Assembly (NCBI GenBank): GCA_020354575.1
Contig: CP070649.1
Coordinates: 1-56,507 of the forward strand
Reading direction: 5' to 3'
DNA from: Candidatus Bathyarchaeota archaeon
Lineage (GTDB): Archaea; Thermoproteota; Bathyarchaeia; Bathyarchaeales; SOJC01
DNA length: 56,507 bases
The position numbers and the translations under genes were made by a program. The first letter of the stretch is position 1. The number at the start of each line of letters is the position of its first letter. Of the stretch, positions 32,481 through 55,710 are shown piece after piece. The notes below the pieces were generated by a model. It was not told the origin of the DNA, did not search any database, and saw only the letters and a program-made list of their open reading frames with translations.

Positions 32481-33758
32481 TCAATACGATACTCTTGTGG
32501 AGTAAGGGAGCTCGCCGAACATTTTTGCTGCTGCTGCACTTACTCCTTTTCGGTACTCCTCGTGGGTATATACCCGCACGACGTTTATGAATCCTCTTAA
32601 GGCTTCAAAGATCCTCGAAATTTCACTAAGACGTTGAGGAATTTTCTTTCCTTCATGTGTTCTATGAAAGATAAGAATTTCCATGGGTTCCAAAAGGGCA
32701 GAATGATGGTATGGTACAGAAGGCAAGGTTGGCACGTCAATGACAACTTGCTGGGGGTCTATGTCTGCATGTTTGGCAATCTTACCTCGCATTTCAGTAC
32801 GAATTTCTTCCGTGTTGAATAATTTTGAAATCCCTTCGTCCTTAACATGGAAGGTTTGTTCATAAGCGCATTTAAAGAGCCGTCGTCTTTCGAGATTTTC
32901 CATAATCTTTCGAGATTTTTCGCATAATTTTAGCATAGTCCAGACAGTATAGTCGTTCAGACTTAGATAATCTTCAGGAGTTTTAAAGCTGATTAAGCCC
33001 AATTCGTCTTTTGCTTTTTCCATTGCTGTTGCAAGCATTATTTGAGCAGCTCGACTCACTCGATGAAAATAAATGCTTTTGAAGGATTCGATGCGAGCCA
33101 GTATGAAAGATTCGAGAGCAGAAAGCGCACCGGAATCGACGACCATATTATCATCCAGAACGTCTAGCATATGAATTATTCGGAAGACATCCACATTTCC
33201 ATACTGGGCACCAGTGTGGTAGGTATCTCTAATGATGAAGTCAAGCTTATCGACATCCACGGCGCTTTGGACTATTTGATCAATGAAATTCTTTCCTCTG
33301 CGATGTAAAGAACCTACAGCAAGTCTTGCTAGTTCACGCGGTTCAAATCCCGATCTCTTAAGAATTTCAGCTAATTCTGATTTTTCTATCATCCACACGG
33401 TTATGTCTTCATGGGTTTTATCGAGAAATTTCTCAAGCAAATGTTCAAATACATGAGAGAAGGGGCCATGCCCCACATCATGGAGTAGTGCAGCAAGTCG
33501 AATCATTTGAATTTCTTCTTTTGATATGTACTGAGAAAGGTTGGGATTTTCTGTTAGTCGCTGTGCAAGGTACATGGTCCCTATGGAGTGTTCAAAGCGA
33601 GTGTGGTTAGCGCCTGGATAAACGTATTCTGCACCTGCTAGTTGACGGAGTCTGTGAAGGCGTTGCATCGGAAATGAGTCTACCACGTCCTTTTCATATT
33701 TTGTTACATAGACATAGCCATAGACAGGATCCTTAATCTCGCCCCAACGGTGGGTCAT
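32481..33758 (-). CDS. HD-domain dNTPase-like phosphohydrolase (SAMHD1/YwfO type)
   Basis: Starts at ATG 33758 (MTHRWGEIKDPVYGYVYVT) behind GGAAGTG; an earlier ATG at 33803 would add 15 residues. The HD core is complete: NHTRFEHSIGTMYLA, ALLHDVGHGPFSHVFEHLL and SAVDVDKLDFIIRDTYHTG. The 425-residue length and order match dGTPase/SAMHD1-like enzymes that hydrolyse dNTPs to nucleoside and triphosphate. A thymidylate kinase gene lies divergently next door, fitting nucleotide-pool control. Confidence 0.88.
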   Translation of the reverse strand: MTHRWGEIKDPVYGYVYVTKYEKDVVDSFPMQRLHRLRQLAGAEYVYPGANHTRFEHSIGTMYLAQRLTENPNLSQYISKEEIQMIRLAALLHDVGHGPFSHVFEHLLEKFLDKTHEDITVWMIEKSELAEILKRSGFEPRELARLAVGSLHRRGKNFIDQIVQSAVDVDKLDFIIRDTYHTGAQYGNVDVFRIIHMLDVLDDNMVVDSGALSALESFILARIESFKSIYFHRVSRAAQIMLATAMEKAKDELGLISFKTPEDYLSLNDYTVWTMLKLCEKSRKIMENLERRRLFKCAYEQTFHVKDEGISKLFNTEEIRTEMRGKIAKHADIDPQQVVIDVPTLPSVPYHHSALLEPMEILIFHRTHEGKKIPQRLSEISRIFEALRGFINVVRVYTHEEYRKGVSAAAAKMFGELPYSTRVSY

Positions 33759-33897
33759 ATTTTCAACACTTCCTTTAAACGCGGTTGTTAGTACATAATT
33801 CATGCATCGTCCAGAGGGTTTAACTTTTTACGTGTCACTTATACTAATTGGCATTAAGCCTTGAGAGTAGTAGACTACGCAAAGGACGTAATGAGCT

Positions 33898-34512
33898 GTG
33901 ACTAACAATCGTGGTGTCTTTATTTGCCTTGAAGGAATAGATGGCAGTGGAAAAACTACTCAAGCACGTCGCCTTGTAAAAACCTTAATAAAAAAAGGGT
34001 ATGACGCTGTCTATACTACGGAACCGAGTAAAGGTCTCTATGGAAAGATAATACGAAAGCAGCTTCTCCAACGAAACAAGCGAGTTCCAATTGTAGTAGA
34101 AGCTTTGCTCTTCGCAGTTGATCGTATTGACCATATTGAGAAGGAAATCAATCCACTTCTCGATGCTGGTAAAGTCATAATCTGTGATCGTTATGTTTTT
34201 TCCTCTATAGCATACCAAGGAGCTTCCGACTTCAGTCAAGAATGGATAAAAGAAATTAACAAGCACGCCATCAAACCAGACCTTGGGTTGTATATTGATG
34301 TACTGCCAGAATTAATGGACAGCCGAATCCATAGGGCAAAATCAGTGATGGAGACTAAACAAACACAAAGGAAAGTTAGAGAAATATATCTGAAATTAGT
34401 GAAAGATAAGCACCTTGTTCATGTTTATGGAAGAGCTACAAAGAGGGAAGTAGCTCAAACTATTGAAAAAGTGGTTTTCAAATTCCTAGAGAGAATTAAA
34501 CCGTCCGCGTAG
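33898..34512 (+). CDS. tmk: Thymidylate kinase
   Basis: A 204-residue P-loop kinase starting at GTG. CLEGIDGSGKTTQARRL is the Walker A, TTEPSKGLYGKIIR the DR(E)-type TMP loop, and ICDRYVFSSIAYQGAS the catalytic DRY segment. It phosphorylates dTMP to dTDP. Its end overlaps the convergent gene by 17 bases. Confidence 0.95.
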   Translation: MTNNRGVFICLEGIDGSGKTTQARRLVKTLIKKGYDAVYTTEPSKGLYGKIIRKQLLQRNKRVPIVVEALLFAVDRIDHIEKEINPLLDAGKVIICDRYVFSSIAYQGASDFSQEWIKEINKHAIKPDLGLYIDVLPELMDSRIHRAKSVMETKQTQRKVREIYLKLVKDKHLVHVYGRATKREVAQTIEKVVFKFLERIKPSA

Positions 34513-40310: not shown

Positions 40311-42221
40311 TTGGGAGAGCATGTGAGAAGAGTATCCGCCTTACTTGTGCTGACTTTGCTGCTTTTCAGTCTCTTTGGCTTTTCACTGAATATTCAACCA
40401 GTGAAAGGGGCGGAGACTATCTACATAAATGCAGATGGCTCCATTATCCCCATAACTGCAAATATTACCAGCATTGACAACAGAACCTACACATTAACTG
40501 ATGACATCTTCTATTCTGGAAACACAACAGCTATCATCATAGAAAAGGATGACATTGTCTTTGATGGAATGGGACATGTATTACAAGGGGATGGTTCACA
40601 TTATTCAATTGGAATCAAGCTTTTCACCAGAACCAATGTTACAATAAGAAATGTTGAGATTAGAGCCCTCGACACCGCAATTTCACTGTCTGATTCATCA
40701 AACATCACGATTCACCACTGCGAAATAAGGGAAAATGGCTGGCATGGTGTTTTACTCCGAAATTCCACAAATAATATAATCTCAACAAACTGGTTCTTCT
40801 TCAACCCACGGGGTATCCAATTAATTTCCTCTTCAAGCAACCTGATATCTGAGAACATAATGGAATTTAACCATTGGTGTATTTACCTGCAAGCTTCAAG
40901 CAACAACGTTATTAATCGTAATGCGATGACGAGAAGTCAAAACTATCAATTTCGTCTCTCTGGTTCCCCGGGCAACCAGATATTTGAAAATAACGTGACA
41001 GAGCATTACCGTTATGGAGCTTACCTGCAGAACTCATCAAGTAACAAATTTAGAAACAATACTTTTACCTCAGGGGGTTGGCATTTCTGGGTTTCTGGCT
41101 CTGCCCTGCCTCACTTTGTAAACGACATTGACCAATCCAACACAGTTGAGAATAAACCAGTTTATTATTGGACTAATAAGCAAAACGAAACAGTTCCAGA
41201 AGACGCTGGTTTCGTGGCTTTAGTAAATTGCACTAACATAATGGTTCAGAACCTATCAATTACTGAGAACGGTCAAGCCCTGCTTCTAGCTGGCACAAGA
41301 AACTCCACCATAATCAGGAACACCTTCGCAGGGAACATCTATGGAATTGACCTTTGGTTATCTTCACACAATCTTATCTCGGAGAATAACATAACAAACA
41401 ACGAGGTTGGGATAGAAGCTAGCAATTCCTCAAACAATCGCATATCCAATAATAGACTGGCAGATAATTACGATTATGATATTGAAGCATTTTACTCTTC
41501 CAATAACTTGATTTCCAAAAATGACATCCAAAGTGAAAATGATGGTCTTCAATTCTATCATTCCATGAATAACACCTTATACAAGAACAACTTAACTGGC
41601 TCCCACGTCTCTTGGGATGCTGGCATTATACTTCTGTACAACTCTTCAAACACTAACATCTACGGGAATAACATTACTTCATATGGATGGGTTGGAATCC
41701 TATTAGACTATACATTTCACAACAGAATTGTGGGGAATATGATAGGAAACAATGGACATGGCATATGGATGGGAATCACTGCCAGCAACGAAATCTTCCA
41801 CAACTGCTTCATCAATAACACAATACAAGCCAAATTTGGGATGGCTGTTCTTAGTGACGTTAACCTTTGGGATAATGACTATCCTTCAGGGGGCAACTAT
41901 TGGGACAATTACAACGGCACAGACTTTCTCAACGGGTCCTCTCAGAATGAGAGCGGTACTGATGGAATTGGAGACACACCTTACATCATTGATGAGAATA
42001 ATCTTGACAGGTATCCTCTGACGGTTCCTTTTGGTCAACTCGTTTGGGATGTTAACGGAGATAGTTATGTGGGAATTGATGATATTATTTCAGCTGCTGA
42101 GCATTTTGGGCAAGACCCCACTCACCTAGACTGGGATTCTCGTTGTGACATAAACAGAGACCAATATGTAGGCATTGATGACATTGTTTCAGTTGCCGAA
42201 CACTTCGGAGAATCCATCTAG
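40311..42221 (+). CDS. Secreted parallel beta-helix protein with dockerin-like end
   Basis: A 636-residue exported protein starting at TTG behind TGGAG. Signal peptide (SALLVLTLLLFSLFGFSLNI), then NosD/PbH1-type right-handed beta-helix repeats (NNIISTNWF..., SSNNLISKN..., NTTIIRNTF-like rungs) and a C-terminal pair of dockerin-like loops, DVNGDSYVGIDDIISAAEHFG and DINRDQYVGIDDIVSVAEHFG. Many N-x-S/T sites suggest surface glycosylation. It may bind or cleave polysaccharide; no cohesin partner is in the window. Confidence 0.85.
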   Translation: MGEHVRRVSALLVLTLLLFSLFGFSLNIQPVKGAETIYINADGSIIPITANITSIDNRTYTLTDDIFYSGNTTAIIIEKDDIVFDGMGHVLQGDGSHYSIGIKLFTRTNVTIRNVEIRALDTAISLSDSSNITIHHCEIRENGWHGVLLRNSTNNIISTNWFFFNPRGIQLISSSSNLISENIMEFNHWCIYLQASSNNVINRNAMTRSQNYQFRLSGSPGNQIFENNVTEHYRYGAYLQNSSSNKFRNNTFTSGGWHFWVSGSALPHFVNDIDQSNTVENKPVYYWTNKQNETVPEDAGFVALVNCTNIMVQNLSITENGQALLLAGTRNSTIIRNTFAGNIYGIDLWLSSHNLISENNITNNEVGIEASNSSNNRISNNRLADNYDYDIEAFYSSNNLISKNDIQSENDGLQFYHSMNNTLYKNNLTGSHVSWDAGIILLYNSSNTNIYGNNITSYGWVGILLDYTFHNRIVGNMIGNNGHGIWMGITASNEIFHNCFINNTIQAKFGMAVLSDVNLWDNDYPSGGNYWDNYNGTDFLNGSSQNESGTDGIGDTPYIIDENNLDRYPLTVPFGQLVWDVNGDSYVGIDDIISAAEHFGQDPTHLDWDSRCDINRDQYVGIDDIVSVAEHFGESI

Positions 42222-43857: not shown

Positions 43858-44334
43858 TTGCCAGGAAAAGATGTGCGAGGGATCTTAGCTGTTCTTTTGG
43901 ATTTGCTTAAATTCCTGAGAATTTATAAGCAGCGTGATTTTTGGATTCAAGTGGCTGCAGGACTTGCTGGGGTATTCCTTTGGATGATTGTACTTCCCAG
44001 CGAGGATATTGCTGGAGCTGTTGCTGCGGCTCCGATTCTCATCGTTCTCACCTTCATTATGATAAACATTATATGGGCTGGCTCTCAAAGGCCATATGCC
44101 TGTGTGCTTGGAAGCTTAATTGGTTATGGGCTATATAATCTCGCAGTTAGTGTGATTGTACATCACCTTTCTATAACGGAGATTCTCGTGGCTGTTATTT
44201 TTGGTGTGATTTATGCGTTTGTCTTTTCATCATTTGCCTTTATGATTTTTAATTTTCTCGGTCTTATTAAAATGAAACAAGAGAAGGGCTCAAAAACTAT
44301 AGGGAAGATAAAAAAGGGAGATGGTGAAGGCTAA
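43858..44334 (+). CDS. Four-helix membrane protein, unknown
   Basis: A 158-residue protein starting at TTG behind GAGAGGGA, with a TATA-like TTTTTTATAAATT about 45 bases upstream. Four membrane helices (about 35-50, 53-75, 82-100 and 105-138) and a basic C-terminal tail. Its stop overlaps the convergent operon end by four bases. Confidence 0.65.
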   Translation: MPGKDVRGILAVLLDLLKFLRIYKQRDFWIQVAAGLAGVFLWMIVLPSEDIAGAVAAAPILIVLTFIMINIIWAGSQRPYACVLGSLIGYGLYNLAVSVIVHHLSITEILVAVIFGVIYAFVFSSFAFMIFNFLGLIKMKQEKGSKTIGKIKKGDGEG

Positions 44335-45068
44335 TCTTCAGCCTGCGGTTTTGATCTTTGCCAGAGCGCCACTCCAACGACGCAGAGAACTGCGATTGGA
44401 ACGAGATACCAGGCCCAGAACCAGTCGCTGTAGCTTGTCTCGTAGAGAAATCGTAGTCGTCCGATGAATAGTGACATTCTGGCCATGACGGTTCCACCAT
44501 ATGCTGCTCCGAAGGTAGCCATAAGGAAGTATCGTCCTATTTTTGTGCTTACTCCTAGGATGCCTGTGTGTTCCCATGTGAAGAAGAAGAAAGACAACGC
44601 CGTAATTATGCCGATGATGATTATGATGCTATCGAGGCCCGGTGGGGGCCATCCTTCCCACACCCCTGCTCCTACTAGTGGCAGCTGCGCAGTGCTTTGG
44701 ATCTGAACTAGGAAGTTGCTTTGGATCATGCCTGTAATCATCATGCCTGCCATTATACCTGCGACGATTGATACGGGATATCTGTACAGGTAGAAGTACT
44801 TCTTCGAGAAGAAGAAGAAGTACATCAAGCTGATGAGTATTGGAATTGCCCAGATTAAGTTGCCTTCGTAAAGTCTTGCGGTTCCCCAGACTCCCTGTGT
44901 TAGAGCAGCGTCATACATGAACGCTAAAGTAAAGACGGCTGCTAAACCAATGAATAGATGCTCCACTGCACGGGAAAGCGGATTTTCCTTCCAGAGGAAG
45001 CTGTATATGAAGATTGTCGCAAAGACCCCAAAGATCGCTGCAAATAGATCGAGTTCAGGGGGGATCAT
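44331..45068 (-). CDS. Polytopic membrane protein H of the MutL-like operon
   Basis: A 245-residue protein with about seven membrane helices; an aromatic patch (SLMYFFFFSKKYFYLYRYP) and a short loop WEGWPPPGLDS stand out. ATG overlaps the upstream gene as ATGA behind GGAGG. It closes the eight-gene operon. No family recognised. Confidence 0.7.
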   Translation of the reverse strand: MIPPELDLFAAIFGVFATIFIYSFLWKENPLSRAVEHLFIGLAAVFTLAFMYDAALTQGVWGTARLYEGNLIWAIPILISLMYFFFFSKKYFYLYRYPVSIVAGIMAGMMITGMIQSNFLVQIQSTAQLPLVGAGVWEGWPPPGLDSIIIIIGIITALSFFFFTWEHTGILGVSTKIGRYFLMATFGAAYGGTVMARMSLFIGRLRFLYETSYSDWFWAWYLVPIAVLCVVGVALWQRSKPQAED

Positions 45069-45928
45069 TTCTCTTTTCCTCCACTAGATCTGGTGAGTAC
45101 GTAACTAATGTTTCCAGCGATAATAAACAGTATAACGATTACGTGGGCCACTGATTGAGCATCTAATGGTGCTAATAGCTCCGTTGGATATCCATAGGCT
45201 CCAGCCAGAAGAGATTCATATTCGCCAGCTCCAGAGAGACCATTCAATATCCCTACGATTTGACCGGCTGCATAAAAGGGCATCATTCCCGGAACACTAA
45301 CCGCTGTAGAGCCTACAACTAGTGGTAATGCAGCTGGACCACCATGACGTCCTTGAACAAATTGTATTACTTGTTGCTCACCTGGAGTTCCTGAGGTGAT
45401 TTCACACCACAGGCTAAGATCTTCAGCAGCTCTGGTGTCCTGCATTAGAGGTATGTCCGCCATAGGGGTTCCATAATGATCCGTACCCTTTGCGGTCCAA
45501 GTGTCATCTCCGAATGTTTGCATACCGACCTCATTTCCTGGAATATATCCGAGATACACCACATCTGTTCCATACTCTGGAATGGCGGGAAAATCGCTAC
45601 CATAAACATCTCTGAGGATGTCCTCACCAAGTGGGCCACCTGACGCCCAAAAGGCAGTTGCGACGACTCTTAGTCCCAGCTCCCTGGCCTGAAAGAGAAA
45701 GCCTTTAGCTTGCGGTCTGTTTTCTGGTATCGTGGCTGGTCCGAAGTCGAACGAGCATACCACTATGTCGCCTGCTGAAAGCGTTTCTGTAGTGTCATAC
45801 ATTGCTTGCGCATGCTCCCCTACCAGTATTGGAAGATTTAGGGGACTTAGAAGTGGGATGCTTACGAAGATGAATAATATGATGTAAAGGTAGCGACGAT
45901 CGATTTGGGTTATAGTTTTCCAATCCAT
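45065..45928 (-). CDS. Membrane-anchored protein G with extracytoplasmic domain
   Basis: A 287-residue protein. One N-terminal helix (YLYIILFIFVSIPLLSPL), a soluble domain of about 210 residues containing DIVVCSFDFGPATIPENRP and GLRVVATAFWASGGP (alternating beta/alpha, Rossmann-like), and a C-terminal helix (VAHVIVILFIIAGNISYVL). Ribosome site GAGGGTGATC. It pairs with the other anchored alpha/beta protein in this operon. Function unknown. Confidence 0.7.
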   Translation of the reverse strand: MDWKTITQIDRRYLYIILFIFVSIPLLSPLNLPILVGEHAQAMYDTTETLSAGDIVVCSFDFGPATIPENRPQAKGFLFQARELGLRVVATAFWASGGPLGEDILRDVYGSDFPAIPEYGTDVVYLGYIPGNEVGMQTFGDDTWTAKGTDHYGTPMADIPLMQDTRAAEDLSLWCEITSGTPGEQQVIQFVQGRHGGPAALPLVVGSTAVSVPGMMPFYAAGQIVGILNGLSGAGEYESLLAGAYGYPTELLAPLDAQSVAHVIVILFIIAGNISYVLTRSSGGKEK

Positions 45929-45938
45929 TTGATCACCC

Positions 45939-46604
45939 TCATTGCTGTTCCGGTCCGAGGTATCCTCGCTCTATGCCCATTAGTTGCCGTATTGCAAGCA
46001 AAATAGCTCCTATTGCAATACCTATAGTGATTGCTCTGTTCCCTGCTGTGTTTGGTACATTTAGAAGCCAAGTAGCAATCGTTGGTAGTCCCTCCCAGAT
46101 TGCTCCCCCTACGGGTGCTCTACCTAGAAGCATAAGCGCGCCTACAATTAATAGTATGGAAGCCTCCAAGCTTCTGAGTCTGAATGCTCTATAAGCTGCT
46201 GATGCAATGAAGAAAGCTAGCAATGAAAATATGGTCATGTCCATGGAAACATATATGTTGTTATAAACCCAGGCGAAGAGATCGCTTGCGTACATCAGAT
46301 GTTGTGGATGGGTTGCAACTCCGTACAGTCCAATAATTAGGTATAAGATTACACCTATAATGGTGAAAATGCTGTATTTCCAGAATCTGCCTCTTTTACT
46401 TATATTGACAGAGTGATGTCTGATCAGTACAATGAGACCTATTACCCCTGCCATTACGACTAGAATGTCCACAGAACCTGTCAAGAGGGCGGTAGCGTCT
46501 CGGGCTGGAGTGCCGGGTGCAAAGAAATAGGTAGCGATGACCATTATTATGCCCATTAAAAAGGTAATTACAAGCGGGATATATCGCTTGATAACAAGAC
46601 TCAT
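45939..46604 (-). CDS. Polytopic membrane protein F of the MutL-like operon
   Basis: ATG 46604 (MSLVIKRYIPLVITFLMG) is chosen because GGAGG lies six bases upstream; the longer frame starts inside the previous gene. About 221 residues with six membrane helices and a short basic end. The loop GRAPVGGAIWEGLPTIATW resembles loops in the other membrane subunits. Confidence 0.7.
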   Translation of the reverse strand: MSLVIKRYIPLVITFLMGIIMVIATYFFAPGTPARDATALLTGSVDILVVMAGVIGLIVLIRHHSVNISKRGRFWKYSIFTIIGVILYLIIGLYGVATHPQHLMYASDLFAWVYNNIYVSMDMTIFSLLAFFIASAAYRAFRLRSLEASILLIVGALMLLGRAPVGGAIWEGLPTIATWLLNVPNTAGNRAITIGIAIGAILLAIRQLMGIERGYLGPEQQ

Positions 46605-46614
46605 GTAATTCCTC

Positions 46615-47394
46615 CTATAACGCAAAGAAATCATTCAATGCTGTGACGCCAGCAGCTGTCAGTATGACACCGATGAGAATTAAAGCAACAGTAGTGATTT
46701 TTGAGAAATCAGCGCCCCATAATGAACCGATTTGAGTTGGGTCTTTGGATAAATATGCCCCAGCGGCCATTAATTCTTCACCTATGAGGGCATAATCCGC
46801 AGCGACAACGAAGAAGTGGATTTGATGGTAGTTTGCAGTTCCAGCAATTTGAATCGCTCCGCTGTAGAATCCTGATTCAGCTAAAATTAGCGATTCTGCC
46901 CAAAATGGTCCCATGTGAATACTTGCTGCAATTTTCTCTCTGTAGGTCCTTCCTAATACTCCGAAAGCCCATGGAAATTGGTCGCCTCCCAGATATTCAA
47001 TATTTTCGGGGTTGAATTCATCTGATTTACCTGCTCGAATGTAGGATTGCTCCATGACATCAACAGCCATAGGCATTATTGTTGGATCGTATGGATAGTA
47101 GATGAGCTTTGCTCCATATTTTGCTGCGAGTTCGGATGTGTACCCCAGAATGTTAAGACCTGCAATGGTTTGGTAGTAGTATTGGTCCCTAATGCCCCCA
47201 AGACCTGTAGTAAAGGCGATTGGTCGTCCCATTTCAGTAGCACGTCCAACTGCTTCTTCAATGGCTTCTAGACCAGGGATGTTTCTGATTTTTGGTGATG
47301 CTTTTCCTGCTCGGGTTAAAAACAGAGCAATAAGTCCTTCAGCCACAACGATAATTAGCATTACAAATGATGCAACTAAGCCTTCGTTAATCAT
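46615..47394 (-). CDS. Membrane protein E with DUF6754-like soluble domain
   Basis: A 259-residue protein: N-terminal helix (VASFVMLIIVVAEGLIALFL), a soluble domain opened by IRNIPGLEAIEEAVGRATEM and GRPIAFTTGLGG, with AAKYGAKLIYYPYDPTIMP, and a C-terminal helix. I associate the IPGLEAIEEAVGRA... block with bacterial DUF6754 proteins; this needs a database check. The role is unknown. Confidence 0.65.
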   Translation of the reverse strand: MINEGLVASFVMLIIVVAEGLIALFLTRAGKASPKIRNIPGLEAIEEAVGRATEMGRPIAFTTGLGGIRDQYYYQTIAGLNILGYTSELAAKYGAKLIYYPYDPTIMPMAVDVMEQSYIRAGKSDEFNPENIEYLGGDQFPWAFGVLGRTYREKIAASIHMGPFWAESLILAESGFYSGAIQIAGTANYHQIHFFVVAADYALIGEELMAAGAYLSKDPTQIGSLWGADFSKITTVALILIGVILTAAGVTALNDFFAL

Positions 47395-47803
47395 TTTTCG
47401 TTTTCCTCATTTTTCCTTTTTTTTCGTCTGCCTCACGTGCTAGCGCTTCTATTTTCCTAATTAAAGCTTCAACATGTCTTCGGTCCTCAAAGAGCAGACC
47501 ATATTCGGAGCCCTGATGCTCATCAATGACAATTCCAAGCATTGGTACTCCGTACATGAGCCACATCTGGCTGCCTATGAAGGAGAGAGGCTTAATTGAT
47601 TCCAAGAAGATGATGGCTGGCGTTTCCAAGCGGTGATTCACTATCCAACTAGCAAGCCTCTCAATTAGGAGTTCCGCTCTCTCCGGTGAGAGTTCAATCG
47701 CAAACCGATGCATTAGTTCACCAACAGTTACTAGAGACGTAACACGTTTGGCATTCTTTCCATTTGGACAACGGATCCATTTAAATCTTTGGTCGATCAT
47801 CAT
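47387..47803 (-). CDS. Soluble protein D of the MutL-like operon, unknown
   Basis: About 138 residues from ATG 47803 (the frame is also open to TTG 47815). It has an alpha/beta feel: ELLIERLASWIVNHRLETPA, IIFLESIKPLSFIGSQMW and a charged helical tail. It overlaps its neighbours at both ends, so it belongs to the operon. No family recognised. Confidence 0.65.
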   Translation of the reverse strand: MMIDQRFKWIRCPNGKNAKRVTSLVTVGELMHRFAIELSPERAELLIERLASWIVNHRLETPAIIFLESIKPLSFIGSQMWLMYGVPMLGIVIDEHQGSEYGLLFEDRRHVEALIRKIEALAREADEKKGKMRKTKND

Positions 47804-48740
47804 CGATTTTGCCAAGTTTTTGCGTACTTTGCTCCAATTTTTCCCTATATTGTGTTATTAATTTAGGATATTTCTCAACTAAATCTGCATTATTTTGTGT
47901 ACATTCAGAGTAGAGGTTGCTAAGTCTTGGATTTACTATACTCAGAAGATCAAATGTTTTCTTTCCCAATTCACTGGCAGCCCGACATGTTGGGTTGCAT
48001 GGAAAGAAATTCATCACAAAATAGGCAAAACGATCCAGCTCTTCTCCTGTGTTCCTCAAATCCCTGATTTGTCTACTGGCTCGGATTTCAACATTGGTAT
48101 CTTGGCTTAAACGATCCTCGATGTATCTTTTTACACAGCAGTGAGGATATCCAAGCATCTTTCCAAGAGATGCAAGGTATTCTGAAGATAATTCCTCCGA
48201 GTAGGCTATTGTTGTTTCTTTAGTGCCTGTACGCGTATCTTTTCTTGCAGTTTTCCTGACCTCAAGCAGTCTTTCTAATTTCTTCTTTAGCTTTGAATCC
48301 TGAAAAAAATATAACTCATGAATACTCGGTCTTACTTCGGTTTCTTTAGTCCGTAGAAGCAGTCTTTTCGCCCATAGCAAATGAGCTTTGTACGAGTTGG
48401 AGGTTAAGACTACTCGTTTGAAAGATTGCCGAAGTTGATTTTTTAATTTCTGAATAAGAATCATCTTCTCGCTAGGAATCGCCATCAAAACCGATTGAAG
48501 ATCTGCTTTACATAGTTCATCAATTCTTCTTCCTAGTTCAACTCCATCTTTGAATTCAGCTGGTATAGTGATAAATGAGCAGGGACGAATTCCGCCAGCT
48601 ACCATCAAGTAATCTTCAATTTTAATATAATCGTGTAAGGCAGTTTCATCTAACAATTCTGTATATAAGGAATTTGTTAGAATGCTAGCCCTGTTCTTGG
48701 GTCTTCTCAAAATTCGGTCGTGAAATCCCATTGAATCCAA
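47781..48740 (-). CDS. DUF483 family protein
   Basis: A 319-residue protein with the DUF483 signature MLGYPHCCVKRYIEDRL and the downstream FPCNPTCRAASELG. The paired cysteines suggest metal binding. The family is widespread in methanogens and other archaea without known function. It is 21 bases after the lipoyl-like gene and overlaps the next one. Confidence 0.8.
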   Translation of the reverse strand: MDSMGFHDRILRRPKNRASILTNSLYTELLDETALHDYIKIEDYLMVAGGIRPCSFITIPAEFKDGVELGRRIDELCKADLQSVLMAIPSEKMILIQKLKNQLRQSFKRVVLTSNSYKAHLLWAKRLLLRTKETEVRPSIHELYFFQDSKLKKKLERLLEVRKTARKDTRTGTKETTIAYSEELSSEYLASLGKMLGYPHCCVKRYIEDRLSQDTNVEIRASRQIRDLRNTGEELDRFAYFVMNFFPCNPTCRAASELGKKTFDLLSIVNPRLSNLYSECTQNNADLVEKYPKLITQYREKLEQSTQKLGKIDDDRPKI

Positions 48741-48761
48741 ACCAAGGACAGGTTACTCGTA

Positions 48762-49913
48762 TTATTCTTCTATTATTTCTACATTTGCCCTTGGCACAAT
48801 TACGTGTCTTCCATCTGCAAGCTTCGCTTCTAAAACCCTAACACTTGATTCTGTCTCAATTGTCTGAAGTTTCACTGGAAGTTTCGAAACGATACCTAAT
48901 GCTCCAAAAAAGGGGTCCCTTATAATTCTTATTGGCGTGCCAGGTAACAACCCTTGCTGAAGGTAATCTTTTTCATCATCATCTTCAAACTTGCTAGACT
49001 CTGTTACTTCATCAATCATTGGAATGATAATTTCAGGTCTAAGGACTCCTGCTCTGATTTGAGTGGCGCCATTAATAGAAGCATCTTTACCATTAAACTT
49101 CTTTAATAGTGAAAAGGTCTTTTCTGACATAGCCATTTCGCCAAACCCCTCTGTGATAATAAGTGTTATGGGGATATCTTCATGGCCTGTAATCGCAACT
49201 CCGATCTTATAGCCTAAGAAGGTTGTTAGATCGTGATCATCTATGCCTCCAACCACAATTCCCTTTACCCCAATTTGACCAGCTTTTTGCAAAGCATCGT
49301 CTGTCACTCGAGCTCCTCCAATCAAGATTTTTCCTTTGTGCTCGGGTTTGAGTTGCGCTGCAGTTAGAATTTCATTCGGAGTTTTAGCGACTAGTGTTAG
49401 CTTGCCCTTTCTTTCACCTCCTATGCCGAAAATTCCTTGAATAAAGGCTGCAGGAGTTTCAATGGTTGCTCCTTCATTTGGTAATATCTCCATTACTTTG
49501 CCGGGTATATATGCATCAATATCTAATGGGATCTTTGACTCTCTGATGAGAACTTGACCTGAAACATCAGAAACTCGTTCAATGGTTCCTGAGGCTGGTG
49601 CGTATGTCGTCCGCTTGAGCAATCCAAAGAGGCTTTTGATCATGGCGATAGGTTCATCTTTCTCGACCTCTTCGCCTTTCTTCTTAAGCAAATATTTCGA
49701 AGTTTCCCAGTATTCAATTCCGAGCAACGCAGCTACATTAGCCACATGGACCTCTCCTAAAATAAATGCCCTAGCGATTATCGTGTCCGCAGTAATCTCT
49801 TCTTTCTCTCTAACTAAAACTTCTCCTGGAATGGGAAGTATTCTTGTTTTTCTAACTACTGTTGTGGCTTTTCTCTTCAATCCGGGTGTATAACAGCAGG
49901 CTTCTGATGACAT
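48762..49913 (-). CDS. Biotinyl/lipoyl-like protein with KOW-like C-terminus
   Basis: ATG 49913 overlaps the MutL-like stop as TAATG; the frame is open to TTG 49934. About 383 residues. The N-terminal part looks like a half-barrel carrier/hammerhead domain (KKKGEEVEKDEPIAMIKSLF, YAPASGTIERVSDVSGQVL). The middle has IGGARVTDDALQKAGQIGVK, an alpha/beta block. The end, LPGTPIRIIRDPFFGALGIV, then VPRANVEIIEE, resembles a KOW/SH3 motif. No conserved lysine for biotin or lipoate is obvious, so covalent modification is doubtful. Confidence 0.65.
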   Translation of the reverse strand: MSSEACCYTPGLKRKATTVVRKTRILPIPGEVLVREKEEITADTIIARAFILGEVHVANVAALLGIEYWETSKYLLKKKGEEVEKDEPIAMIKSLFGLLKRTTYAPASGTIERVSDVSGQVLIRESKIPLDIDAYIPGKVMEILPNEGATIETPAAFIQGIFGIGGERKGKLTLVAKTPNEILTAAQLKPEHKGKILIGGARVTDDALQKAGQIGVKGIVVGGIDDHDLTTFLGYKIGVAITGHEDIPITLIITEGFGEMAMSEKTFSLLKKFNGKDASINGATQIRAGVLRPEIIIPMIDEVTESSKFEDDDEKDYLQQGLLPGTPIRIIRDPFFGALGIVSKLPVKLQTIETESSVRVLEAKLADGRHVIVPRANVEIIEE

Positions 49914-51760
49914 TATGCTAGCGAACCCCCACAAAGCTCATATAGTTTTTCAGGATATGCGTCGAGTGCTTGGAACCATCCAACTAGCTTTTTTCTTCTT
50001 TCATTCTTGTCATCTGGTAAGATTACTGGTCTCCCTCTTGCGTCCAGGATGATACCGACTGTTCCTCCTTCGATCTCCACGGTTCTAGTTTTTCCTTCGC
50101 CTTTACCTACATCTCCACCTCGAAATGGGGTAATCTCTACCTTGGCTTTTTCTCCTTCCTCAAGTTGGACTCTTTTCATTGTCCCAAATTCCGCTCTTTC
50201 TTCGATTACTGAATTATCGGATTTGTGAACGACAATTTCCATAGCTTCTCCAACTTTCGAAGCTGTTCCCTTGGGAGCAATGCAAACTCCAATTCTGATA
50301 AGACAATCTTTCTCAAATATTTCCATAGCGGCTTCGGGATGAACAGTGGAAAGAACGCCCAGATGGGGCATCATAAATACGCTGTCTTGAGCTAACCTAG
50401 TTACTCCTTCTGGCTGGAAACCATCAATTAACATAAGGGCTGATTGAGCTCTTCTCGGTGCGTGGGAAAGGAGACCACCTGTGCCGGCGACTAGGTTGAT
50501 TTTGAGCATGTCGATGTAGGTTTCTTCGAATGATCGTTGGTCAAAAATGTCAGCTATTGTACGCCGCCTTTGTACTCCGCGAAGAGGTCGAGCCAGCAAC
50601 TTATGATGGGCAAAACCTAAGCGCAAAGCTTCTCTTGCAACTGCATGTTCTATAACCAGATCTCCTATGCTTTGTGGAACGGTTGTGGGACGTATCATCT
50701 TGTTGTAAAGGCGGTTGCGAAGATCATCTTCTGTGATGTCAAAGGGTATCCAACGAGTGATCTTCTGAGTTCCAGCTTCTTTCAATACGTTGCAAATACT
50801 ATAGCTCATTCCTAAGTTGGCACTCACTGTTCTAACAAATTCATTCTCGTAAATTGAATACACGTTGGTGGTTGCCCCACCTAGGCCGACACCAACGACA
50901 TTTATCTTGTATTTTTCTGCAATTACTTGGAACATTTTTCCTTCGCCAGCGGGCGTTGGCATGATGGGGATAGGTGTCCATTTCATCAAGCGGTCGTATC
51001 CGGGTGCATGGGACATGACATGTTCCATAAAAAGCTCATGAATAACATTTCTGGCCGGCTCTGTGTTTTCCATTTCCAGAACAGGACGTAAATTCTCAAC
51101 GATCTTCAAAGCGAATGTTTCATCTAGAATTTCCTTGATGTTTGTACGTGCTTTTTTATTTCCAGCAAAAACGATTGGGAGCTCAAAGTCTGCACCTAGC
51201 CTTGGTCTTGGCTTTGCAGCCTCAATCAGCTCAGCCGTTTCAGCTACATGTGTGATTGTTCCTCCATCAGTACCTCCAGCCATTAGAATCATATCGGGTC
51301 TGAGATACCGTATTCTCTCAATTTTTTCGTAAGGACGTCTTCCATCATCCACTGCTATTACATCCATAACTATAGCTCCAGCACCTAACGCGGCCCTTTC
51401 AGCACTCTCAGCAGTCATCGTTTTTACAACTCCTGCCACCATCATCTGAAGTCCTCCGCCGGCACTACTCGTAGTAACGTAGAGATCTGCTCCTTCATTC
51501 CCCTTTGAGGGCGTAATTATGCCCTGAGAACCCAATAATTTGTGTCCAGTTAATTCCTCCACTTCTCGTACGGCATTTCGAACACCCAATGTTACATCTT
51601 CAAAAGGACTCTCAACAGTTGTGGGAGCTTCTCCACTAACCACAAATCTATATTCATCTCCGATTTTCTTAAAGAAACGGGCTTTGCTTGTCGTGCTCCC
51701 ACAATCCGTTGCCAGAATAATGTTAATCTTATCCGTATTGATTCTGAGCTTTGAAGTCAA
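49913..51760 (-). CDS. MutL/GlmL-family ASKHA protein
   Basis: A 615-residue protein starting at TTG. Phosphate loop IILATDCGSTTSKARFFKK, TSSAGGGLQMMVAGVVK, MAGGTDGGTITHVAETAEL and the second phosphate loop VGVGLGGATTNVYSIYENE identify the glutamate-mutase accessory family, an ATP-binding actin/Hsp70-like fold related to reactivases of B12 enzymes. No B12-dependent mutase subunit (GlmS/GlmE) lies nearby. It leads an eight-gene operon with four membrane proteins, so it probably energises or assembles a different complex. Confidence 0.88.
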   Translation of the reverse strand: MTSKLRINTDKINIILATDCGSTTSKARFFKKIGDEYRFVVSGEAPTTVESPFEDVTLGVRNAVREVEELTGHKLLGSQGIITPSKGNEGADLYVTTSSAGGGLQMMVAGVVKTMTAESAERAALGAGAIVMDVIAVDDGRRPYEKIERIRYLRPDMILMAGGTDGGTITHVAETAELIEAAKPRPRLGADFELPIVFAGNKKARTNIKEILDETFALKIVENLRPVLEMENTEPARNVIHELFMEHVMSHAPGYDRLMKWTPIPIMPTPAGEGKMFQVIAEKYKINVVGVGLGGATTNVYSIYENEFVRTVSANLGMSYSICNVLKEAGTQKITRWIPFDITEDDLRNRLYNKMIRPTTVPQSIGDLVIEHAVAREALRLGFAHHKLLARPLRGVQRRRTIADIFDQRSFEETYIDMLKINLVAGTGGLLSHAPRRAQSALMLIDGFQPEGVTRLAQDSVFMMPHLGVLSTVHPEAAMEIFEKDCLIRIGVCIAPKGTASKVGEAMEIVVHKSDNSVIEERAEFGTMKRVQLEEGEKAKVEITPFRGGDVGKGEGKTRTVEIEGGTVGIILDARGRPVILPDDKNERRKKLVGWFQALDAYPEKLYELCGGSLA

Positions 51761-51838: not shown

Positions 51839-52267
51839 ATGAACGATGAAAGGAATAGGAGCAGAAAGGCTCCTGCTTTAGCAGACTATGTAGCAGGAGC
51901 TGCTCTTGCCAACTCCCTAGCCTGGCTGACATTAGGAGTAATCGCTATTCTAAATTTCAATCCCAATACTGCCGTGCAACTTCTATTTCTAATGTACCCA
52001 CTTGGCGCGGTTGTCGCGGGATTTCTTGTATCTCGCAAGTTGATTCAGGACGATCTTAAAGTTGGTCTGAAAACAGGGATAGGCGCCTTTGTGCTTCACA
52101 TTTATGTTTTCATGGGAGTACTCGAATTAATTTGGGGTACTAGGGTTCTATTTCTGGGAGATCATATTTTGATTCTTGGATCCTTCATCTTAGGGGGATT
52201 GGCTGGAGCGTTTCTTTATTCGCGTTTCTTGTATTCGCGTTCTTCTCAAGGGCTTAAGCCCAAATAG
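51839..52267 (+). CDS. Small membrane protein divergent from the MutL-like operon
   Basis: A 142-residue protein with four membrane helices (about 14-42, 47-65, 78-100 and 107-128) and a basic tail. The ATG lies about 25-30 bases after the TATA-like half of the dyad, so the mRNA may be leaderless. No family recognised. Confidence 0.65.
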   Translation: MNDERNRSRKAPALADYVAGAALANSLAWLTLGVIAILNFNPNTAVQLLFLMYPLGAVVAGFLVSRKLIQDDLKVGLKTGIGAFVLHIYVFMGVLELIWGTRVLFLGDHILILGSFILGGLAGAFLYSRFLYSRSSQGLKPK

Positions 52268-53931: not shown

Positions 53932-55710
53932 GTGGAGATGGAGGTGGGTCAAATTAAGAAAAGTATTGACTTAGAAAAAATTTATGGACTCTCATTAAAA
54001 CTTAGCAAACAGGATCGAGAAGATTTAGGAATGAGAATTCCCGTAAATATTTTCGTCCAAGATCCTTTTATTGCTCAGAGATATAAGCAAAAGAAAAAAT
54101 TCGGGATAGAACCAATTAAACTAGATTGGGAACCCAGTTGGGGAAATGGACCGACTAGTTCAAGAGTAGCTGTGGTAGATTACAATATGGACACCGATAT
54201 TCTTGCTAGTCCTGTCAAATGGGACCGGAAAAAAAAGAAGTTCATTGGGACTACTGATCCTAACAGCTTTCGTTTTCACAATGTAAATGTGTGGGCCATC
54301 ATTCACAATATTATAGCTTTTTTCGAAGACCCATATGTGATGGGTCGTCCAATCCCTTGGGGATTCAATGGGAATAGGTTGATAGTAGTACCTCACGCAG
54401 GAGAAAAGAAAAATGCCTTTTACAGCCGAAGAGGCAAATGTTTGTTATTTTACTACTTCTTTTCTGGAGGTGTACCTGTTTATACATGTCTATCGCATGA
54501 CATAGTTGCACATGAGACAGGGCATGCTATACTTGATGGTATTCGCCCTCATTATTTTCATTTCAGTTCAGCTCAATCAAGCGGATTTCACGAATTTATT
54601 GCTGATCTTACCGCAATACTTTCAGCCCTTAGAACAACCTCAGTGCGTCATGCCGTAGCGGACATTTTAGAAAAAGCTGACGGTCAGCTTTGGGAAGCAC
54701 AGGTTATTTCTCGTCTGGGGGAAGAATTTGCGGTAAAAGGTTCAGAAGAGACATATGAAAGTGTGGATCGAAACTACATTCGTAATGCATACAACGATAA
54801 AACTATGGATCAAATTAAAAATTGTTGGATACCCCATGATTGCTCTGAAGTATTAACTGGAGCTCTGTTTCAAATTTTAGCTGAGATTATAATTTATAGG
54901 ATAGAAAAAGAGAATGAGTCTGCTAAAGCGGCACTATGGAGGGCGACTCAGCATCTTAACAGATTAGCATTTAGAGCATTAGATTATTGTCCTTCCGTTG
55001 ATATCCAATTCGAAGATTATGTTCAAGCCTTAATCCGAGCAAATGAAATAGCTTATCCAGTCGATACTCATGGATACTTGGAGATTATTAAGGAAATCTT
55101 CAAGAAAAGAGGAATAGAAAAAATAGACCCAGACCCACCACCAAAAGCCGTCTCATTTACCTGGAAATATGACTTGGAAAGCATAGCTAGCTCTCACACA
55201 GCAGCCTATCATTTCTTAGATGATAATCGTGAAATACTTGATATTCCATTAAACCAAGACTTCGAAATAGCTGACATATATTATACTAACAAAGTAAAGG
55301 GAGCATATGAAAGACTACCCCGAGAGATTATTCTAGAGTATATTTGGAATGAAGCCATAACACTGAGGGGGAATGACTTTGGTGAGTTCCAAAACAAGAA
55401 AGTGCCTCTTCGTTGTGGCGGAACACTTGTTTTTGAAGAGCGTGGTAACCTTTTGTATTGGAGTAGAAAAGCTGGAACAAAGCCCAAAAGAGTTAGAAAA
55501 ATAGGCAATGAACGTATTAAAAAACTTCTCCATTATATAAAGTTGCTAATTGCAGCAGATAAGATCAGGTTAGTACCTGCGGAAGCGCTACAGCATATTA
55601 ATCCTTATCAACCTGCGATTGAAGCAATACAAGATGGCGGTATGCTCCAACTTGAGATAACTCCGGAGTTTCTAAATCCAACTAAGGGTTTGGTGAAAAG
55701 TAATGAATGA
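53932..55710 (+). CDS. Thermolysin-like (gluzincin) metallopeptidase domain protein
   Basis: A 592-residue protein without signal peptide, so cytoplasmic. The zinc site is HETGH (His194, Glu195, His198) in LSHDIVAHETGHAILDGI, with a third ligand and support in FHEFIADLTAIL (Glu221, Asp225), the ExxxD arrangement of gluzincins. Residues 400-592 form a C-terminal part without a recognised domain. The next gene overlaps by eight bases. ATG 53938 is an alternative start. Family name not known to me. Confidence 0.75.
   Translation: MEMEVGQIKKSIDLEKIYGLSLKLSKQDREDLGMRIPVNIFVQDPFIAQRYKQKKKFGIEPIKLDWEPSWGNGPTSSRVAVVDYNMDTDILASPVKWDRKKKKFIGTTDPNSFRFHNVNVWAIIHNIIAFFEDPYVMGRPIPWGFNGNRLIVVPHAGEKKNAFYSRRGKCLLFYYFFSGGVPVYTCLSHDIVAHETGHAILDGIRPHYFHFSSAQSSGFHEFIADLTAILSALRTTSVRHAVADILEKADGQLWEAQVISRLGEEFAVKGSEETYESVDRNYIRNAYNDKTMDQIKNCWIPHDCSEVLTGALFQILAEIIIYRIEKENESAKAALWRATQHLNRLAFRALDYCPSVDIQFEDYVQALIRANEIAYPVDTHGYLEIIKEIFKKRGIEKIDPDPPPKAVSFTWKYDLESIASSHTAAYHFLDDNREILDIPLNQDFEIADIYYTNKVKGAYERLPREIILEYIWNEAITLRGNDFGEFQNKKVPLRCGGTLVFEERGNLLYWSRKAGTKPKRVRKIGNERIKKLLHYIKLLIAADKIRLVPAEALQHINPYQPAIEAIQDGGMLQLEITPEFLNPTKGLVKSNE

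Follow-up and report, generated by a model that had tools for sequence, protein, structure and literature searches.

The window, i.e. the whole stretch of 56,507 nucleotides that was analysed, belongs to a Bathyarchaeota genome of 1.84 Mb assembled as a single contig. Eight adjacent genes (g1-g8), all on the minus strand, occupy positions 44331-51760 (Table 1), and reading of the open reading frames confirmed the extent and the tight junctions given in the initial annotation. The genes are joined by overlaps or by gaps of at most ~21 bases: g1 and g2 overlap by 1 base, g2 and g3 are separated by 21 bases, the pairs g3-g4, g4-g5 and g7-g8 overlap, and gaps of 10 bases lie on either side of g6 (g5-g6 and g6-g7). 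Because of these junctions, g1-g8 are likely to be carried on one transcript, in the order MutL, carrier, DUF483, g4 and the four membrane protein genes g5-g8 (hereafter, the cassette). Pfam gives no family for g4, g6, g7 or g8.

Table 1. Genes of the operon in the window (coordinates in the window; aa, amino acids; TM, transmembrane)
Gene	Coordinates	Strand	Product	Basis
g1	49913..51760	-	MutL/GlmL-type ASKHA protein, 615 aa	PF13941, 398 bits, residues 15-486
g2 (carrier)	48762..49913	-	383 aa, start ATG 49913	AF2 model and KOW match
g3	47781..48740	-	DUF483 protein, 319 aa, start TTG 48740 or ATG 48731	PF04467, 34 bits, weak
g4	47387..47815	-	Small protein, 142 aa, start TTG 47815 or ATG 47803	Recurring MutL partner
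g5	46615..47394	-	DUF6754 protein, 259 aa, start ATG 47394	PF20539, 271 bits
g6	45939..46604	-	Polytopic membrane protein, 221 aa, start ATG 46604 after AGGAGG, ~5-6 TM	Cassette member
g7	45065..45928	-	TM helix-alpha/beta domain-TM helix, 287 aa, start ATG 45928	Cassette member
g8	44331..45068	-	Polytopic membrane protein, 245 aa, start ATG 45068	Cassette member

Several other genes of the window were recorded. A 142-aa polytopic protein (51839-52267, plus strand) is encoded divergently from the MutL gene, and its homologue (DUF3792-like, below cut-off) lies at L048:960-1373, upstream of the other cassette of G201. An HD/HD_assoc_2 protein and a thymidylate kinase are encoded at 32481-34512, ~10 kb from the operon, and homologues of both adjoin the second cassette, in L048. 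The plus strand also encodes a 592-aa protein with a zinc-protease-like HETGH motif and no Pfam match (53932-55710), and a NosD/beta-helix secreted protein (40311-42221) that has a pair of dockerin-like repeats, DVNGDSYVGIDDI / DINRDQYVGIDDI, at its C-terminus.

The g1 protein matches PF13941 over its full length (gathering cut-off 27 bits), carries a C-terminal extension of ~130 aa past the Pfam domain, and is 49-64% identical to MutL homologues encoded in operons of other phyla. Its phosphate-1 motif is intact. The phosphate-2 motif reads GVDIGGATTDVFS in the bacterial MutL proteins checked and GVGLGGATTNVYS in the window MutL; both aspartates are lost (D to G and D to N) in 8/8 archaeal sequences checked (the window, L048, L173, L175, L176, L177, L194 and L195). 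ATP hydrolysis by archaeal MutL is uncertain because the phosphate-2 aspartates are altered.

The g2 protein had been described as a lipoyl-like carrier with a KOW-like end, and the fold, though not the function, was borne out. In the AF2 model (pLDDT 84.5), a barrel-sandwich at the N-terminus is followed by an alpha/beta part and, at the C-terminus, by a KOW/SH3-like domain; the latter overlays the Spt5 KOW domain (8p4e_Z, TMt 0.86, rmsd 1.3), and this KOW/NusG-like end was the sole meaningful Foldseek match. Against Biotin_lipoyl in Pfam, g2 reached just 16 bits, short of the cut-off. Among 20 carriers, Lys, Cys and His are invariant at no position, and the tip of the hairpin, AMKM in biotinyl domains, is (F/L)G-x-x. 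A lipoyl or biotin carrier role was rejected, since the 20 carriers have no modifiable lysine at the hairpin tip; with no conserved lysine, g2 is an adaptor and not a prosthetic-group carrier. MutL and the carrier have no significant sequence relative in the PDB. The two are fused as one protein of 913-1091 aa in six loci. These loci (L178, L179, L180, L181, L182 and L183) encode a diverged second type of MutL-carrier, and no cassette was seen within the stretches read around them.

Two polytopic and two anchored alpha/beta proteins had been reported for the rest of the operon, and this architecture was recovered: g6 and g8 are polytopic, and g5 and g7 each consist of a domain between two TM helices. 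The initial annotation had overlooked that g5 is a full-length member of the named family DUF6754 (PF20539, gathering cut-off 27 bits). For g5 there is a confident AF2 model (pLDDT 91; helix-domain-helix, with an alpha/beta soluble part), but Foldseek comparison of this model with PDB folds returned nothing at E<=0.001, and no significant sequence relative of g5, g6, g7 or g8 was found in the PDB. Eleven g5 positions are invariant or nearly so across 102 sequences (G50, R51, E54, G56, G64, G162, E173, G179, D200, E207 and D229). In g8, F161 and G187 are invariant and R96, R197 and Q122 near-invariant; in a crude hydropathy scan of g6 and g8, none of the TM helices had a conserved charged residue buried within it. 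Homology within the cassette was unsupported, both between g5 and g7 (HHalign probability 14%) and between g6 and g8 (0.4%).

Topology was predicted with the positive-inside rule. Five Lys/Arg residues follow TM1 of g5, so its domain should face the cytoplasm. Both termini of the g7 proteins (103 homologues) carry Lys/Arg, and few such residues flank the domain, which should therefore lie outside. The cassette is thus predicted to expose one alpha/beta domain on each side of the membrane.

A scan of 84,980 species returned more than 580 relatives. The best 80 of these came from bacteria (Cloacimonadota, Zixibacteria, Planctomycetota, Armatimonadota, Bacillota (Symbiobacterium, Fermentithermobacillaceae), WOR-3, Fermentibacterota-like Aegiribacteria, Poribacteria, Coatesbacteria, Latescibacterota, Eisenbacteria, Riflebacteria and Myxococcota) and from archaea (Bathyarchaeota and Methanomethylicota), named as in the record titles. 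The cassette occurs in a dozen or more bacterial phyla and in several lineages of archaea. The strict order g5-g6-g7-g8 (DUF6754 protein, polytopic, anchored, polytopic) was found in 104 of the 119 g5 loci examined; most of the other 15 appear to be contig-end cuts or gene-calling artefacts. In ~16 cases g4-MutL-carrier immediately precedes the cassette, and g4 homologues stand immediately 5' of MutL-carrier in ~15 bacterial operons. The usual bacterial order is c3, g4, MutL, carrier, g5, g6, g7, g8, where c3 is a small membrane protein present in 24 bacterial loci and absent from the window. Because the same gene order recurs in distant genomes, the linkage is beyond chance.

All eight window genes recur in linkage elsewhere, in bacteria and archaea. 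The proposed eight-gene unit was narrowed in one respect: DUF483 homologues occur beside a cassette or carrier only in L048 and L194 (archaea) and in L054 and L196 (Bacillota), after the carrier in L196 and by the cassettes in the other three. The recurring core is therefore seven genes, and g3 is a facultative accessory.

Among 300 genomes of the window's phylum, DUF6754 was found in seven, with 1 to 7 copies each (an eighth match, of 19 bits, was debris and was left out of the count). The carrier was present in exactly these seven (one further match, of 18 bits, was left out as noise), and so was full-length MutL (~400 bits); the other MutL matches in the 300 genomes reached at most 27.6 bits and covered only a short stretch. 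For the co-occurrence of a pair of these genes, Fisher p is ~2e-14, uncorrected for kinship; kinship inflates this value, though the seven genomes span several families. The carrier was also present in 43 of 44 further DUF6754 genomes. Neither of the outcomes that the initial annotation named as refuting it was seen, since the genes do co-occur in other bacteria and archaea and no known complex matched the set. The proposal of an undescribed membrane complex functionally tied to the ASKHA protein is well supported, and the existence of a real, widespread membrane system, undescribed so far, is near certain.

GlmL and Or-4 are thought to be maturation or repair chaperones of B12 mutases, and an accessory operon of a B12-dependent mutase (methylaspartate or ornithine) would explain why g1 matches PF13941 and, weakly, the GlmL and Or-4 models. 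Against the GlmL and Or-4 NCBIfam equivalogs, g1 scored 207.5 and 205.7 bits (cut-offs 600 and 475), within a range of 153-208 bits for the GlmL/Or-4 models (cut-offs 204-600) and below all of them. The glutamate mutase E subunit (PF06368) was absent from all seven genomes and no mutase gene was seen beside the operons, in line with the earlier remark that the window operon has no mutase subunit. A role as glutamate or ornithine mutase accessory was rejected on these grounds; for glutamate mutase it is refuted in the seven genomes, and the mutase explanation as a whole is scarcely tenable.

Copy numbers of the two parts differ. Archaeal genomes have one complete carrier and 3-7 cassettes, several bacteria have one carrier and 5-6 cassettes, three tandem cassettes follow a single MutL-carrier in L059, and G325 has 15 cassettes, the highest number per genome, with several carriers. 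One soluble module therefore probably serves many cassettes.

This ratio is also expected from the main rival, in which MutL-carrier would be purely a maturation or repair chaperone for a membrane enzyme made of g5-g8 that is not a transporter, e.g. an oxidoreductase or hydrolase with its active site in the g5 R/E/D cluster. The membership of g1 in the MutL family, the enzyme-like invariant residues of g5 (R51, E54, E173, D200, E207 and D229) and redox genes by some cassettes (Hdr/Tfr-like near L033, acyl-CoA dehydrogenase adjoining L037, AOR near L195) all agree with it. However, no cofactor motif was seen, g7 and g8 are hard to explain in such an enzyme, and the neighbours are diverse; we consider this explanation rather unlikely.

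A Pfam scan of 111 cassette neighbours gave no dominant substrate class. Amidohydrolases and cassettes lie close together more often than expected (16/20 within 3 kb), but the profile had been seeded from such neighbours, and the association is no more than suggestive support for transport. By eye, putative D-aminopeptidase, P1 peptidase and M20 genes adjoin MutL-carrier loci in Bacillota and archaea, and putative D-cysteine-desulfhydrase-like and 5-oxoprolinase genes lie beside MutL-carrier in the same two groups. Glycine cleavage genes lie upstream of the MutL-carrier-cassette operon in L063, L086, L098, L100, L106 and relatives, some of which have a lipoate-ligase-like gene downstream of the operon. 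One orthologous cassette, that of L032, L041 and L050, has genes for an FtsZ/tubulin-domain protein and for ThiS upstream, and its g8 is followed by a gene for an Lrp ligand-binding protein. In Phycisphaerae (L091, L095, L107, L120, L123 and L125), the cassette is directly upstream of plsX-fabH-fabD-fabG-acpP-fabF.

This last arrangement, together with a GDPD gene preceding the nearest relatives (L034 and L051) and the predicted outside position of the g7 domain, would suit a machine that assembles the cell envelope, lipids or the cell surface and has an ASKHA regulator in the cytoplasm. Such neighbourhoods are lineage-specific, however, and cassettes span lineages of very different envelopes, archaea included, which makes an assembly machine distinctly unlikely. 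A membrane complex for sensing or signalling, with its two alpha/beta domains on opposite sides, would accommodate the two-sided topology and the expansion of paralogues to 15 copies, but a linked kinase, regulator or receptor domain is not typical, the sole example being the Lrp-like gene after g8 in L032 and its orthologues; signalling appears quite improbable.

One archaeal clade has a further partner. The operon BCCP, OadA, g5, g6, g7, g8 was found in L033, L039, L043 and L208, and in L209 the contig ends within OadA, with the cassette alongside. These five OadA-linked cassettes form one clade (support 0.97; 73-90% mutual identity). Their OadA proteins contain RDAHQSLLATR and HSHT, as pyruvate/oxaloacetate carboxyltransferases do, and MKM or AMK is present in the BCCP. 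Next to the BCCP-OadA-cassette operon, in divergent orientation, is a PxpBC-like carboxyltransferase-domain gene. Biotin carboxylase, the 12S-type carboxyltransferase and OadB were all absent from the five genomes (control genomes were positive). In a search with positive controls, OadB (PF03977) was likewise absent from all seven genomes, although a divergent OadB could escape detection and the malonate decarboxylase membrane proteins MadL/MadM were outside this scope. In the window, the operon has neither OadA nor a biotinylatable BCCP; the genome encodes OadA apart from the cassette, and genes for biotin carboxylase and a 12S protein lie no more than 10 kb from OadA.

In oxaloacetate decarboxylase, decarboxylation of carboxybiotin and Na+ pumping fall to the membrane subunit OadB (PMC7274780). 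The presence of OadA and BCCP without a carboxylase or second carboxyltransferase fits best a decarboxylase needing a membrane partner; the co-operonic cassette is a candidate for that partner, hinting at ion translocation. PYC_OADA was present in 20 of 44 other genomes and near no cassette there, and OadA was not found beside cassettes in bacteria. Being confined to one archaeal clade, the OadA link may be a lineage quirk. A bolder generalisation, which we regard as unlikely, is that the cassette represents a new class of primary ion pump or transporter with interchangeable soluble drivers that dock via a barrel-sandwich: OadA and a biotin carrier (decarboxylation) in the one archaeal clade, and MutL with its lysine-free adaptor elsewhere.

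The reading that we tentatively prefer, with a probability of about 0.42, is that of a complex for transport or ion translocation which a shared ASKHA module serves in trans. The cassette has four membrane subunits (g5 with its domain predicted inside, g7 with its domain predicted outside, and the polytopic g6 and g8), which would translocate ions or solutes across the membrane, diverged cassettes handling different substrates or reactions. The soluble module consists of MutL, the barrel-sandwich/KOW adaptor and the small g4. A single ASKHA-adaptor pair would dock on the cytoplasmic side, at g5, and assemble, load or energise each cassette in trans, much as the work is divided in group II ECF transporters; in the one archaeal clade, the cassette would be coupled instead, or additionally, to OadA and a biotin carrier, replacing OadB. 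Transport is supported by the strict cassette order, the co-occurrence, the one-to-many copy ratio, the fusions, the two-sided topology and the OadA operons. Against it, no transporter or pump matches g5-g8 in sequence or fold, the hydropathy scan of g6 and g8 gave no buried conserved charge, the OadA link is limited to one archaeal clade, and the cassette neighbours are diverse. The earlier suggestion that the ASKHA protein assembles or energises the complex is still plausible, but the loss of the phosphate-2 aspartates argues against ATP-driven energisation in archaea and weakens that part of it.

This membrane system of seven to eight genes, which archaea share with a dozen or more bacterial phyla and whose cassettes number up to 15 per genome, appears to be without a described function. 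If it is a transporter or pump, it would be a missing piece of energy or nutrient metabolism in many uncultured anaerobes, would add a second role for GlmL-type ASKHA proteins, and would provide an orphan biotin decarboxylase with the membrane partner that it lacks. A search of 5.4 million open-access texts gave no paper that names DUF6754 or PF13941 (subscription papers and preprints were outside this scope).

Comparisons with Pfam, NCBIfam, the PDB and PADLOC found no known complex matching all eight genes, and an anti-phage defence system was rejected (0 PADLOC profile matches). The ASKHA domain of g1 matches, from end to end, that of the B12 aminomutase accessories GlmL/Or-4 (MutL, PF13941); g1 differs in its C-terminal extension, its fixed partner (the carrier) and its membrane partners in place of a mutase. 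The N-terminal barrel-sandwich of g2 is common to biotinyl/lipoyl carrier domains, which differ in having a modifiable lysine. The Na+-translocating oxaloacetate decarboxylase (OadA, BCCP, OadB, OadG) is approached in five archaeal genomes, where OadA sits with the cassette, the biotin carrier is also present wherever the contig extends, and there is no other known partner; the membrane part, however, is g5-g8, unrelated in sequence to OadB, and the window cassette lacks OadA and BCCP. Group II ECF transporters combine one shared soluble energising module with many membrane units encoded elsewhere. None of the eight operon proteins is an ABC ATPase; in place of ABC ATPases there are an ASKHA protein and a barrel-sandwich adaptor, there is no S-component, and each unit has four conserved membrane subunits. 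No known kind of system fits, and the nearest analogies, ECF and oxaloacetate decarboxylase, each fail a tested defining feature; the likeness to ECF transporters lies in a single soluble module that serves several membrane units.
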